64,000 bases of DNA from Gemmatimonadaceae bacterium. Lineage in GTDB: Bacteria; Gemmatimonadota; Gemmatimonadetes; Gemmatimonadales; Gemmatimonadaceae. Below, piece after piece: positions 39,876 through 53,513 of the stretch; position 1 is the first letter of the stretch; each line of letters starts with the position of its first letter. The notes under the pieces are model-generated. The model saw only the letters and a program-made list of their open reading frames with translations, was not told the DNA's origin and ran no database searches. Location: NCBI GenBank assembly GCA_040882285.1, contig JBBEBQ010000025.1:124001-188000 (forward strand). Direction: 5' to 3'. The position numbers and the translations under genes are program-made.

Positions 39876-41321
39876 CTAAGTGAAGATCCTCCCCGCGAGG
39901 ACGTAAACGACCAGCGGAAGCAGGACGATAAAGAAGATGTTCAGCCACACCCCGGCTCTCGCCATCTGTGGGACCGTGAGCGCGCCGGTGCCATAGACGA
40001 TCGCGTTCGGCGGCGTGGCGACCGGCAGCATGAACGCGCAGCTCGCGGCGAGCGCGGTCGGAATCGCGAGCATCAAGGGGTCCGCTCCTATGCCGACCGC
40101 CAGCGAAGCTACGACTGGAAGGAATGCCGCGGCGGTCGCGGTGTTGCTCGTCAGCTCGGTCAGAAAGATCACGACCGCGGTCACCACCAGGATCACCAGC
40201 AGCAGCGGCCATCCGGCCAATGCTCCCAGCTCTCCACCGATCCAGCCCGCGAGGCCGGTCTGCTGGATCGCGGCCGCGAGCGAGAGTCCGCCGCCGAACA
40301 GGATGAGCACCGACCACGGGAGGCGCTCGGCCTGCTTCCATGTCAGCGCGACGCGGGGCGAGCGCCATGACAGCGGCACGATGAACATCAGCAGGGCTCC
40401 GGTTATGGCGATTCCGGTATCCGTTATCGCGGGCACCCACCGCTCGATGATCGGACGGGTCACCCACGCCGCCGCGGTCAGCGCGGTTATCGTCCCGACT
40501 GTCCATTCGGCCCGCGTCATCACGCCGAGCGCGTGCCGCTCCTCGCGCAGCATCGCGGCTCCGCCCGCGACCGGGTCGGAGCCGACGGGATGCAGCCACT
40601 TGGTGAGCAGCAGCCACGCGACGGGAAGTGCCAGCAGCACGATCGGCACGCCGAGGAACATCCACTCCACGAAGCCGATGCGAACGCCGTACGTCTCCGA
40701 CATGAAGCCAGCGAGCAGCGCGTTTGGCGGCGTGCCGATGAGTGTGCCGAGCCCGCCGATGCTGGCCGAGTACGCGATTCCGAGCAGCAGCGCCACGCCG
40801 AACGCGCTGATTCGCGTGTCGCCCGCCGCATGGTCACCGTCACGCGCGAGCGCCATGACCGACGTGGCCATCGGCAGCATCATGACGACGGTTGCCGTAT
40901 TGCTCACCCACATGCTGATGAAGGCGGTGGCGACCATGAAGCCGAGAATCAGATTGGCCGGCTTCGTACCGACTACGCCGAGCACCCCCAACGCCATGCG
41001 CTTGTGCAGCCCGCAACTCTCGAGCGCCATCGCGATCAGGAAGCCGCCAAGAAAGAGGTAGATCACGGGATTCGCGTACGGCGCCGTTGTCGCCGCGACC
41101 GTCGCGATGCCGAGCAGGGGGAAGAGCACGATCGGCAGCAGCGCCGTCGCGGGGATCGGGATCGCCTCGGTGATCCACCATGTCGCCATGAGCGCGCCCA
41201 CGGCCGCTGTGCGCCAGGCGAGGAGCGACATGCCCTCGGGCGGCGCCAGCAGAAGCATGACAGCGAAGAGCAGCGGTCCCCCCGCGAGCCCCACCCGCCC
41301 GCGGGTGAGAGTGGCCGTCAT
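39876..41321 (-). CDS. SLC13/DASS-family anion:sodium symporter
   Basis: A 481-residue inner-membrane transporter with about 12 hydrophobic segments. Family landmarks: WWITEAIPIPATALLPIVLF near the N-terminus and two SNT motifs (SMWVSNTATVVMMLP and TELTSNTATAAAFLPV). DASS proteins import dicarboxylates, citrate or sulfate with sodium. The SNT motifs suggest a di/tricarboxylate substrate, but this cannot be decided. Divergent from the next gene across a hairpin-rich 120-base gap. Confidence 0.9.
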   Translation of the reverse strand: MTATLTRGRVGLAGGPLLFAVMLLLAPPEGMSLLAWRTAAVGALMATWWITEAIPIPATALLPIVLFPLLGIATVAATTAPYANPVIYLFLGGFLIAMALESCGLHKRMALGVLGVVGTKPANLILGFMVATAFISMWVSNTATVVMMLPMATSVMALARDGDHAAGDTRISAFGVALLLGIAYSASIGGLGTLIGTPPNALLAGFMSETYGVRIGFVEWMFLGVPIVLLALPVAWLLLTKWLHPVGSDPVAGGAAMLREERHALGVMTRAEWTVGTITALTAAAWVTRPIIERWVPAITDTGIAITGALLMFIVPLSWRSPRVALTWKQAERLPWSVLILFGGGLSLAAAIQQTGLAGWIGGELGALAGWPLLLVILVVTAVVIFLTELTSNTATAAAFLPVVASLAVGIGADPLMLAIPTALAASCAFMLPVATPPNAIVYGTGALTVPQMARAGVWLNIFFIVLLPLVVYVLAGRIFT

Positions 41322-41367
41322 CGAGAACGATCGGCGGAGGGAAGGGTGGCGGGCGTCATTGCGCCCG

Positions 41368-41388
41368 ACACGCTGCAGCGCAGCGTGT
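41368..41388. other. Short perfect hairpin between divergent genes
   Basis: ACACGCTG (41368-41375) pairs with CAGCGTGT (41381-41388) over a 5-base loop, in the gap between the transporter and the MBL-fold gene. It could be an operator or a structured leader; no T-run follows. Confidence 0.4.
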
Positions 41389-41442
41389 AGCGCCGCAAGG
41401 GCCTATGGCGCGGGCGGCTCCGGCTCCCGACATTGGAGCTTC

Positions 41443-42348
41443 ATGAACACGACATCGACGCGAGTACGAATCGCCCGGGCGGCGAGCGCCAGTGTGGCTT
41501 TGCTGCTTGCCCCGAGCAGCTGCGCTCGAGAGCCAGCCCCGGACCCGCGCGTGCAGCGCAGCGTGCTCGCGGAGCACACTTACCTTCTGTCCGCGCCGGA
41601 AGGAAACCTGGTGATGTACAATGGGCCCGCGTCGGTAGTGGTCGCCGGAGTTCAGTCGCCGACCCTGGTGCGGGCCGCATTGCGGGAGATGGGTTCGCGC
41701 GGCGACCGCCGGCTTTACGTGATCGCGCTCGCGGCGGACAGCGCCCCGCGGTACGGCGACGGCGGTTGGGGCGGGCGCGGGGCGGTGACCATCGCTCACG
41801 AGAAGCTGCGGACGCGCATGGTGCAGGCGATCGGAAAGGACACGGGGACAGTGCAGCCCGCATCGGTCGGGTATTCCCAGGTCATCCAGATCTACATCCC
41901 GGGCGTGGCGACGCATGCCGTGGCGCAGGCTCCGGGAATCTCGGATTCCGACGCGAGCGTTCACTTCCATTCCAGCAAGGTGTTGATGCTGGCGAACATG
42001 TTTGCCGCCGATGGCTATCCGGCCATCGACACGACCAGCGGCGGCAGCTTCCTCGGCCTGCTCGGCGTGACGCAATGGTTCGCCGAAAATTTCAAGGACG
42101 AGGACGTGGTGATTCCGGCCCGCGGCCCGGCGCTGCGCGGCCGCGACCTGCGGAACTACGTGGAGATGCTGGAATCCGTGCGCGACCGCGTGCAGCCGCT
42201 CGTGACGGACGGCCGTACGCTCCCCGAGATAATCGCGGCGAAGCCGCTGGCCGATCTCGACGCTCGGTGGGGGCGGGGGCCGGTCAGCGCTTCCGCGTTC
42301 CTCGCCGCGGTGGTTCACTCGCTACGGACGGGGCCGCCCCCGGGATGA
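41443..42348 (+). CDS. Metallo-beta-lactamase-fold lipoprotein lacking metal ligands
   Basis: A 301-residue exported protein with a lipobox-like LLLAPSSC. The order of motifs follows periplasmic MBL-fold hydrolases: NLVMYNGPASVVVAGVQSP, TIAHEKLRTRM, YPAIDTTSGGSFLGLLG, and a C-terminal helix pair ending LADLDARWGRG. Each metal site is changed. HxHxDH is replaced in LAADSAPRYGDGG, GHTxGD reads GISDSD, GDLF reads ANMF, and GHGP reads ARGP. It is probably a non-catalytic binding or sensing protein. It lies between two anion transporter genes. Confidence 0.75.
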   Translation: MNTTSTRVRIARAASASVALLLAPSSCAREPAPDPRVQRSVLAEHTYLLSAPEGNLVMYNGPASVVVAGVQSPTLVRAALREMGSRGDRRLYVIALAADSAPRYGDGGWGGRGAVTIAHEKLRTRMVQAIGKDTGTVQPASVGYSQVIQIYIPGVATHAVAQAPGISDSDASVHFHSSKVLMLANMFAADGYPAIDTTSGGSFLGLLGVTQWFAENFKDEDVVIPARGPALRGRDLRNYVEMLESVRDRVQPLVTDGRTLPEIIAAKPLADLDARWGRGPVSASAFLAAVVHSLRTGPPPG

Positions 42349-42366
42349 GACAAGAGGTTATGTGAT

Positions 42367-43719
42367 TCATCCCGCCAGGGCGATCCCCACCATGCCCACG
42401 ATGGCGACCAGCAGCGCCCCGGGCAGGGCGAATCTGATCCAGCGCCCGTAGCTGACTCTGGCGCCGAGCAACATCGCGAGCAGGGCACCGTTGGTCGGGG
42501 TGATCATGTCCGTCAGACCCGCGCCGGTCTGATAGGCGATCACTGCCGCGTCACGGCTGATCCCGAGCAGGTCGGAGAGCGGCGCCATGATCGGCATCGT
42601 GAGAACCGCCTGCCCGCTCACCGACGGGACGGGGACGTGCAGAATCGCCTGCACGGGAATCATCATCAGCGCCGCGGCCAGCCCTGGAAGGTGGGCGAGC
42701 GGTGTCGCGAGCCCGTGCACGATCGTGTCGATCACGCGCCCATCCGTGAACACGAGGCTGATTGCCCGCGCCACGCCCACGAACAGTGCCGCCCCGACCA
42801 TCGCTTCCATCCCTTTGAGAAAGGCGGCCGCGGTCGAGGAGAGGCTCATTCCGGCGACGAGTCCCACGGCGAAGCCGGCCACGAGAAACAGCGCCGACAG
42901 CTCGTTGAATCCCCAGTCGTATCTCACCACACCTACCACGTACGCGATGAAGGGCACGATCACGATCGCCAGCAGAACGATGTCGCGGATCGTGGCGCGT
43001 TCGGTTGGTGCGACGGTCACTTCAGGGCTGACCTCGTCGCGCGCCGCCATCGCCAGCGTCCACCCGATCCACACCGCCACGGCCGCGGCAAAGAGGCTGA
43101 ACCGCAGTACGGGCAGCGAGAGCGGCGGAAGCTCGGCGAAGCGGAGCGCGATTCCCGTCTGGAACGGATTCGTCGGCCCGAATGCCGAGCCGACCACCGC
43201 CGCGCCCACGCTCATCCCGAGGGCGGTGATCGCGCCGAATCCCAGCCCCTGGCTCAACACGACCAATACCGGAATCAGGGCGATGATCTCCTCGTGCATG
43301 TTCTCGAGCGCGCCCAGAATCGCGAAGGCCAGACTGACGGCGATCACGACGGTTCGCGGTCGCCGGGTGCGGCCCACGAGCGAGCCGACCAGCCGGCCCA
43401 GCGCCCCGGTCGCGTCGAGCAGAACGAATGCGCCGCCGACGAAGAGGATCACGACGATTATGTCCGCCCCGGCGACGATCCCGCGTGGCACCGCGAGCAC
43501 GGCGTCCCCGATTCCCACGGGCGCGGCCGCGGTCGGAGCGTACGTTCCGGCAACGACGACTTCGCGTCCCGTCGCCGGGTCGGTGCGTCGCTCGTACGTC
43601 CCCGCCGGCAGGATCCACGTTAGGATCGCCGCGACACCGACGGCGAACAGCAGGAGGACCAGCGGGTGCGGCAGCCGGAGTCTTGCCTGCGGCGTCGGCG
43701 CGGACGTCGATGCTAACAT
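42367..43719 (-). CDS. YfcC/DcuC-family permease
   Basis: A 450-residue membrane protein with about 12 hydrophobic segments. Landmarks: PHPLVLLLFAVGVAAILTWI, LPAGTYERR, a periplasmic loop, then GALENMHEEIIALIPVLVVL and ITPTNGALLAMLLGA. This is the YfcC/ArcD-like branch of the DcuC superfamily, whose members carry C4-dicarboxylates, short-chain acids or basic amino acids. With rocD nearby an arginine/ornithine substrate is possible, but this is only a guess. Confidence 0.85.
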   Translation of the reverse strand: MLASTSAPTPQARLRLPHPLVLLLFAVGVAAILTWILPAGTYERRTDPATGREVVVAGTYAPTAAAPVGIGDAVLAVPRGIVAGADIIVVILFVGGAFVLLDATGALGRLVGSLVGRTRRPRTVVIAVSLAFAILGALENMHEEIIALIPVLVVLSQGLGFGAITALGMSVGAAVVGSAFGPTNPFQTGIALRFAELPPLSLPVLRFSLFAAAVAVWIGWTLAMAARDEVSPEVTVAPTERATIRDIVLLAIVIVPFIAYVVGVVRYDWGFNELSALFLVAGFAVGLVAGMSLSSTAAAFLKGMEAMVGAALFVGVARAISLVFTDGRVIDTIVHGLATPLAHLPGLAAALMMIPVQAILHVPVPSVSGQAVLTMPIMAPLSDLLGISRDAAVIAYQTGAGLTDMITPTNGALLAMLLGARVSYGRWIRFALPGALLVAIVGMVGIALAG

Positions 43720-48318: not shown

Positions 48319-48856
48319 GGAGCTATTGGCTGTTGGCTATTGGCTATTGGCTAACGACCAACAGCGGTCGTCGCGAGAACTCGAATATTAGTGCAATCAA
48401 ACGATGACGCGGATTCGTCGATCGCTCGAAAACGTGGGCGCATGCAAGACTACCGAAAGCTCCGCGTTTGGCAGGCCGCCCATGCGCTTGTGTTGGGGGT
48501 CTACTCAGCCACCAAGCACTTTCCAACTGCGGAACGGTTCGGGTTAACGGCCCAGTTACGCCGCTCGTGCTGCTCGATCCCCGCGAATATCGCGGAGGGA
48601 GCGATGCGAAGCTCAGATCCTGGCTTCGGCCATTTCCTTCAGATAGCAGCGGCGTCGGCCAGCGAGTCGGACTATCACCTGCTGCTCGCTCGGGACCTTG
48701 GGTACCTCGCACCCGAGGTGCACGAGCAACTCGCCACTGAGCTTCAAGGCCTTCGCCGCGGGATTTCGGCTCTACAGAAATCCCTGAAGAAGAGTCGGTC
48801 AGTCAGTAAAGCAGGAGTGGTTAGCTAATGGCCAATAGCCAACCGCCAATAGCTCC
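48319..48856. repeat. Heptamer hairpin element H7-7 carrying an S23-type gene
   Basis: The left arm 48319-48355 and the right arm 48820-48856 are 37 bases each and complementary in 34. Both start GGAGCTATTGGC and consist of GGCTATT/GGCTGTT words. Between them lies one gene encoding a four-helix-bundle protein. The element spans exactly the gap between the hppA stop (overlapped by the right arm) and the ychF start. A small hairpin CGACC...GGTCG follows the left arm. Confidence 0.9.
48442..48828 (+). CDS. Four-helix-bundle protein (S23 / 23S rRNA intervening-sequence family)
   Basis: A 128-residue protein of the S23/TIGR02436 family, related to proteins encoded in 23S-rRNA intervening sequences and to the Avd accessory protein of diversity-generating retroelements. 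All four helices are present: LRVWQAAHALVLGVYSATKH; GLTAQLRRSCCSIPANIAEG; FLQIAAASASESDYHLLLAR; EVHEQLATELQGLRRGISAL. The biochemical role is unknown, but basic surfaces suggest nucleic-acid binding. The gene is opposite to its neighbours. Its stop codon TAA lies in the right arm of H7-7. ATG 48442 gives the family start (QDYRKLRVW); an earlier in-frame start at 48391 is less likely. Confidence 0.88.
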   Translation: MQDYRKLRVWQAAHALVLGVYSATKHFPTAERFGLTAQLRRSCCSIPANIAEGAMRSSDPGFGHFLQIAAASASESDYHLLLARDLGYLAPEVHEQLATELQGLRRGISALQKSLKKSRSVSKAGVVS

Positions 48857-53373: not shown

Positions 53374-53442
53374 TGTCACAGCCCTGTAAGATACGGTGTG
53401 CCAGAGAGTTTAGTCAATCGGACCGGCCCGATTGGCGGCGAG

Positions 53443-53513
53443 TTGCCCCCGGTGGATTCGAACCACCATTCTCGGCTCCAAAGGCCGATGTCCTGCCGTT
53501 GGACGAGGGGGCA
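53443..53513 (-). tRNA. tRNA-Gln (anticodon TTG)
   Basis: Cloverleaf on the minus strand: acceptor TGCCCCC/GGGGGCA, D-stem GTCC/GGAC, anticodon stem TCGGC/GCCGA around CTTTGGA (anticodon TTG), variable GAAT, T-stem GGTGG/CCACC with loop TTCGAAT. The discriminator is A and CCA is not encoded. It reads CAA (and CAG by wobble). Confidence 0.93.

Follow-up and report, generated by a model that had tools for sequence, protein, structure and literature searches.

Does a protein with the build of a zinc-dependent hydrolase, from which every metal ligand has disappeared, come from a broken gene, or does it work in a new role? The question is raised by a gene of a soil bacterium of the Gemmatimonadaceae, located in the window (the whole stretch of 64,000 nucleotides that was analysed). 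The original prediction described its product as a metallo-beta-lactamase (MBL)-fold lipoprotein without any metal ligand, in keeping with a binding or sensing pseudo-enzyme. Here, we confirmed the open reading frame, which encodes a probably exported protein of 301 residues:

41443..42348, plus strand: MBL-fold pseudoenzyme gene, 301 amino acids, ATG start (GGAG lies four bases before it), hydrophobic export signal at the N-terminus

Domain models recognize this protein poorly. A Pfam scan of the window protein returned no family at E≤1, and the gathering score of PF00753 was hence not reached; among ten members of its clade (defined below) that were scanned, three matched PF00753 at E≤1, with a best E of 0.0016. 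The NCBIfam scan gave one weak match (E 0.01), to TIGR04559 (SoxH_rel_PQQ_2; quinoprotein relay system zinc metallohydrolase 2), at 15.3 bits against a curated cut-off of 280 bits, which places the protein outside that family. At the N-terminus, a hydrophobic stretch is present, but a scan for the lipobox pattern ([LVI][ASTVI][GAS]C near the N-terminus) found none in the window protein, where a proline occupies position -3, and a canonical lipobox was found in only one of the 17 clade members (L088, LAAC). Export is therefore likely for most members, whereas the description as a lipoprotein is unsupported for the window protein. The sister-species copy (L084) fits a laxer form of the pattern, and L088 is apparently the same gene as L030.

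The predicted structure matches the MBL fold. AlphaFold, run with an alignment of 72 rows (the window protein together with 71 of the 81 contig-scan stretches listed, active relatives included), returned the alpha-beta-beta-alpha sandwich of the MBL fold with a pLDDT of 90.5 and a pTM of 0.85, and the helices that follow the MBL core at the C-terminus were retained in both model and alignment. The best solved matches by Foldseek were 8d2z (E 4.3e-14), SPM-1 and chlorothalonil dehalogenase, and VIA-align superimposed the model on 6uxu over 257 residues (Z 24.0, 2.8 Å) and on 8d2z over 258 residues (Z 22.1, 3.4 Å). Since active relatives had been present in the first alignment, the prediction was repeated with 12 clade rows only, giving a pLDDT of 74.7 and a pTM of 0.71 with strands and helices mainly unchanged; MBLs were again the top Foldseek matches (8d2z, E 2.6e-11). 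Thus, 8D2Z, an MBL superfamily protein of Burkholderia cenocepacia with 16% identity, was the top match of both models. The stretches that had been quoted as evidence of a well-kept fold, YPAID..GG and the C-terminal DARWG, are indeed family-wide.

The relationship to MBL proteins was also evident from sequence searches, where the window protein found matches at E≤0.001 in 19 of 60 relative genomes, most of them to exported proteins of the MBL fold whose motifs are intact. Relatives gathered by genome searches and a contig scan (best 80 of 162 relatives) were assembled into a family alignment of 124 non-redundant rows, 17 of which are without a metal site. The comparison set of 104 active-type rows leaves out L163, in which two ligands are changed, and the distant proteins L019 and L023, whose ligands are intact; it includes two truncated rows (L144 and L158) without the HxHxDH region. 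When aligned to these active-type relatives, the window protein keeps none of the seven metal ligands: A97 and D99 stand at the HxH positions, A101 and P102 at the DH positions, I166 at the third His, N185 at the bridging Asp and R227 at the last His. The Asp that forms the first motif of the MBL superfamily is likewise replaced, by Gly69. The corresponding features are:

41647..41649, plus strand: Gly69 replacing the first-motif Asp (active type: Asp in 101 of 104 rows, gapped in the other three; clade: Gly in 17 of 17 members)
41731..41748, plus strand: residues 97-102 (A-A-D-S-A-P) replacing HxHxDH, by alignment
41938..41940, plus strand: Ile166 at the third-His position (His in 104 of 104 active-type rows and 4 of 17 clade members)
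41995..41997, plus strand: Asn185 at the bridging-Asp position (Asp in 104 of 104 active-type rows and 1 of 17 clade members)
42121..42123, plus strand: Arg227 at the last-His position (His in 104 of 104 active-type rows; in the clade Arg in 16 of 17 and Ile in 1 of 17)

The loss extends to the whole clade. Across its 17 members, the successive ligands of HxHxDH are kept in 0, 0, 0 and 1 sequences, the third His in four, the bridging Asp in one and the last His in none, so that no member has an intact HxHxDH. Every active-type sequence, on the other hand, has intact ligands wherever it is complete, with a full HxHxDH in 102 of 104 rows, the other two being the truncated ones. The replacement of all ligands, as originally predicted, therefore stands. 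Outside the clade count, the acidobacterial (gp2) sequence L163:1267-2145 is otherwise of active type but carries Asn and Leu in place of the first two His of HxHxDH, a change known from a single metagenome contig that could be an error.

The 17 non-redundant members, including the window gene, come from Gemmatimonadota and rarely Acidobacteriota and span at least 10 genus-level groups. A profile of the clade matched 13 of 395 genomes of the phylum at 328 bits or more, with the next match at 231 bits, and the same score gap separated the one clade member found among 396 Acidobacteriota genomes; the members from G157 and G487 and the two Acidobacteriota members came from searches other than the 395-genome scan. 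Identity to the window protein is 30–41%, except for the sister copy at 93%. In a tree of 83 rows (66 of the 102 active rows) built without the ligand loops, all 17 members fell on one side of a branch with an SH-aLRT of 99, and removing the first-motif columns as well, in a tree of 51 rows (34 of the 102), gave the clade UFBoot/SH-aLRT values of 100/100. When two distant intact MBLs were added to a tree with the same 34 active rows and one of them was used as root, the clade again held together (SH-aLRT 99) and was placed among intact proteins. As these two rows are long and provide no clean outgroup, a single loss is well supported while the rooting is not firm. The metal site would thus have been dismantled once, in a common ancestor. 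Elsewhere in the family, two intact MBL members, L034 (G119) and L080 (G089), occur in same-strand tandem pairs.

The loss of ligands was accompanied by a set of residues common to the clade. The loop at positions 106–109 reads D-x-G-W, with each of the three residues found in all 17 members; in the active-type rows, position 106 is Asn in 104 of 104, Gly108 occurs in one and Trp109 in none. Gly69 (17 of 17) and Arg227 (16 of 17) are similarly absent from all 104 active-type rows. These shared replacements, together with those of the loop, bear out the check proposed for the original prediction, that replaced residues should be conserved in orthologues. His158, His174 and Asp170 are invariant as well, but the active type has His at 158 in 30 and at 174 in 49 of its 104 rows, so that the two histidines are less telling and may be structural. 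Asp at the second-His position (D99 in the window protein) is found in 10 of 17 members. Together, the D, G and W of the loop and 14 more columns make 17 invariant columns over the 17 sequences, among which the Tyr-Pro of the active family's YPFID motif is retained:

41758..41769, plus strand: D-x-G-W loop, residues 106-109 (D-G-G-W)
41914..41916, plus strand: His158
41962..41964, plus strand: His174
42013..42021, plus strand: Gly191-Tyr192-Pro193 (17 of 17 clade members)

Given at least 16 relatives with the same replacement, the gene does not look broken but seems to encode a functional protein whose task has changed. We therefore read it as probably encoding an exported MBL-fold pseudoenzyme of a conserved clade that binds a ligand or a partner. 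The old active-site pocket would have become a metal-free site, formed in part by the D-x-G-W loop and by the Arg that stands in for the last His, and its conserved Asp, Trp, His and Arg may hold a small ligand or contact a partner protein of the cell envelope. More tentatively, the pattern of conservation might reflect a zinc centre replaced once by a metal-free D-x-G-W and Arg site, serving a new chemistry or a receptor function.

The conserved clade residues could also support catalysis without metal, and D106, E120, S145, H158, D170, H174 and R227 would then form an acid-base or nucleophilic site. The invariance of these polar residues (16–17 of 17) across a divergent clade and the retention of the MBL fold and Tyr-Pro motif are in keeping with such an enzyme. 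However, D170, E120 and the Tyr-Pro occur in the active family as well and might serve the fold instead, and we neither found nor know of an MBL-fold precedent, which makes a new metal-independent enzyme unlikely.

We consider a structural or regulatory subunit (a dimer partner, inhibitor or adaptor) about as unlikely. MBL-fold pseudoenzymes are known mainly from eukaryotic RNA processing, and CPSF100 is one such pseudoenzyme of an RNA-processing complex. INTS9 is likewise described as a pseudoenzyme that lacks important metal-binding residues and might recruit other subunits (PMC7980224). INTS9 and CPSF100 resemble the window clade at the level of the fold, with the metal site lost and the protein kept, and the retained C-terminal helices would suit a similar subunit role. 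They differ in being eukaryotic, in carrying a beta-CASP domain and in belonging to RNA-processing complexes, whereas the window clade is bacterial and exported. Moreover, the window genome holds no close active paralogue to serve as partner: searched with a profile of the active relatives, it yielded only the gene itself and a fragmentary, distant MBL match (E 3.1e-6).

The gene neighbourhood likewise points to no partner. In the window, the gene is flanked by two transporter genes:

39876..41321, minus strand: DASS-family sodium:anion symporter, PF00939 and TIGR00785 above cut-off, divergent from the pseudoenzyme gene
42367..43719, minus strand: DcuC/YfcC-type transporter, convergent with the pseudoenzyme gene, PF03606 above cut-off and the YfcC model of NCBIfam below it

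The predicted position between two organic-anion transporter genes is thus correct, but a link to organic-anion transport is weak. Among the genomes examined, the DASS/pseudoenzyme/DcuC arrangement occurs only in the window genome and its sister species (G001), and the DASS and DcuC genes are found together only in these two and in a congener, G003. In G003 (L192:2860-3010), no gene lies between them, and the DcuC stop and DASS start overlap as ATGA; the G003 pair is an apparent operon, which in the window's lineage (39876-43719) is split by a third gene that runs the other way. G002 has a DcuC gene and no DASS match, and none of the DASS matches in ten further genomes had a DcuC gene within 1.5 kb. 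The gene was therefore either gained between the transporters or lost in G003, and we rejected the transporters as functional evidence, as the pair stands beside the gene only in the window genome and its sister and exists in G003 without it.

Unrelated genes flank the remaining clade members. In an all-against-all comparison of the flanks, shared genes were confined mainly to the window's genus and the g32 group among the matches listed, and no conserved neighbour hinting at a partner was found in the clade flanks across lineages. Three of the 17 members (L039, L062 and L090) lie directly downstream of MacAB- or MacB-type genes, the flanking genes being called in part by a rough G+C-position heuristic. 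A link to MacB/FtsX efflux was rejected as uninformative because the genomes of L090 and L062 contain 106 and 68 MacB_PCD matches; that of L039 contains 12. With such numbers of these periplasmic-core-domain matches, the MacB/FtsX-type permeases of G491 (L090) and G423 (L062) have expanded to a very large set.

Several other elements were observed in the window. An inverted repeat with 8-base arms, CGGGATGA...TCATCCCG (42341-42374), sits where the pseudoenzyme gene and the DcuC gene converge and is possibly a shared terminator or an insertion trace. A small open reading frame, MQDYRKLRVWQAAHAL... (48391-48828), which lies at the same place in L084, may resemble four-helix-bundle S23-type proteins. 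A single tRNA gene, tRNA-Gln (ttg), was found in the window, at 53442-53513.

A relocated metal site, built from His158, His174, Asp170, Asp106 or the clade-frequent Asp99, would keep the protein a metalloprotein. The first four are invariant in the clade and Asp is present at position 99 in 10 of 17; however, Asp99 is thereby not invariant, and the active family, with its ordinary site, frequently has His at 158 and 174 too. A further comparison is offered by chlorothalonil dehalogenase (Chd, 6UXU), the closest solved structure by VIA Z, which aligns almost to the C-terminus with 14% identity. Chd binds one catalytic zinc through Asp116, His117, Asn216 and His257 (PMC12784990). By motif order, these ligands would correspond to A101, P102, N185 and R227 of the window protein, so that the reduced mono-zinc site would be missing too, except for the Asn at 185. 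With both the Asp-His and the last-His parts of this set gone, we regard a relocated metal site as improbable.

The gene is clearly constrained. Between the window gene and the sister-species copy, the mature region gave a dN of 0.034, a dS of 0.166 and a dN/dS of 0.206, the only species-pair estimate for the window gene, which rests on about 51 differences; the whole gene gave 0.227, and L003 against L028 gave 0.165. The neighbouring transporter genes gave 0.115 and 0.139, and the pseudoenzyme gene, with its dN/dS near 0.2, is therefore under purifying selection but somewhat less constrained than they are. A decaying pseudogene or assembly artefact, which the loss of all ligands and the long branch of the window lineage (1.24–1.28 changes per column) might suggest, is highly implausible against this constraint, stop-free frames in 17 of 17 members and replacement residues conserved over at least 10 genus-level groups.

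With its ligands lost and its fold and selection kept, the window protein is a probable MBL-fold pseudoenzyme, a kind of protein and not a family. The pseudo-enzyme reading is well supported by the matched fold, the absence of an intact HxHxDH from the clade, the conserved replacements and purifying selection, and neither outcome named as refuting the original prediction was observed. The clade's nearest known counterparts are exported MBL-fold hydrolases of many phyla with the motifs NTHWHxDHTGGN, AHTDGD, MGD and PGHG, for which TIGR04559 is the nearest NCBIfam model, below cut-off. The two groups share the fold, the export signal, the YPxID motif and the C-terminal helices, and sit across the clade's branch from each other in the trees; the hydrolases keep all ligands, whereas the window clade has lost HxHxD as well as the last His and carries a D-x-G-W loop and an Arg of its own. 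MBL-fold pseudoenzymes as such are already known (INTS9, CPSF100), while no account of this exported bacterial clade was found in the limited open-access literature that was searched.

An exported bacterial clade in which every ligand is lost and a replacement set is conserved would be a natural experiment in the dismantling and reuse of a metal site. It warns against calling such genes hydrolases or beta-lactamases from the fold alone, and it yields a short list of residues for direct tests: 69, 106–109, 158, 174 and 227.
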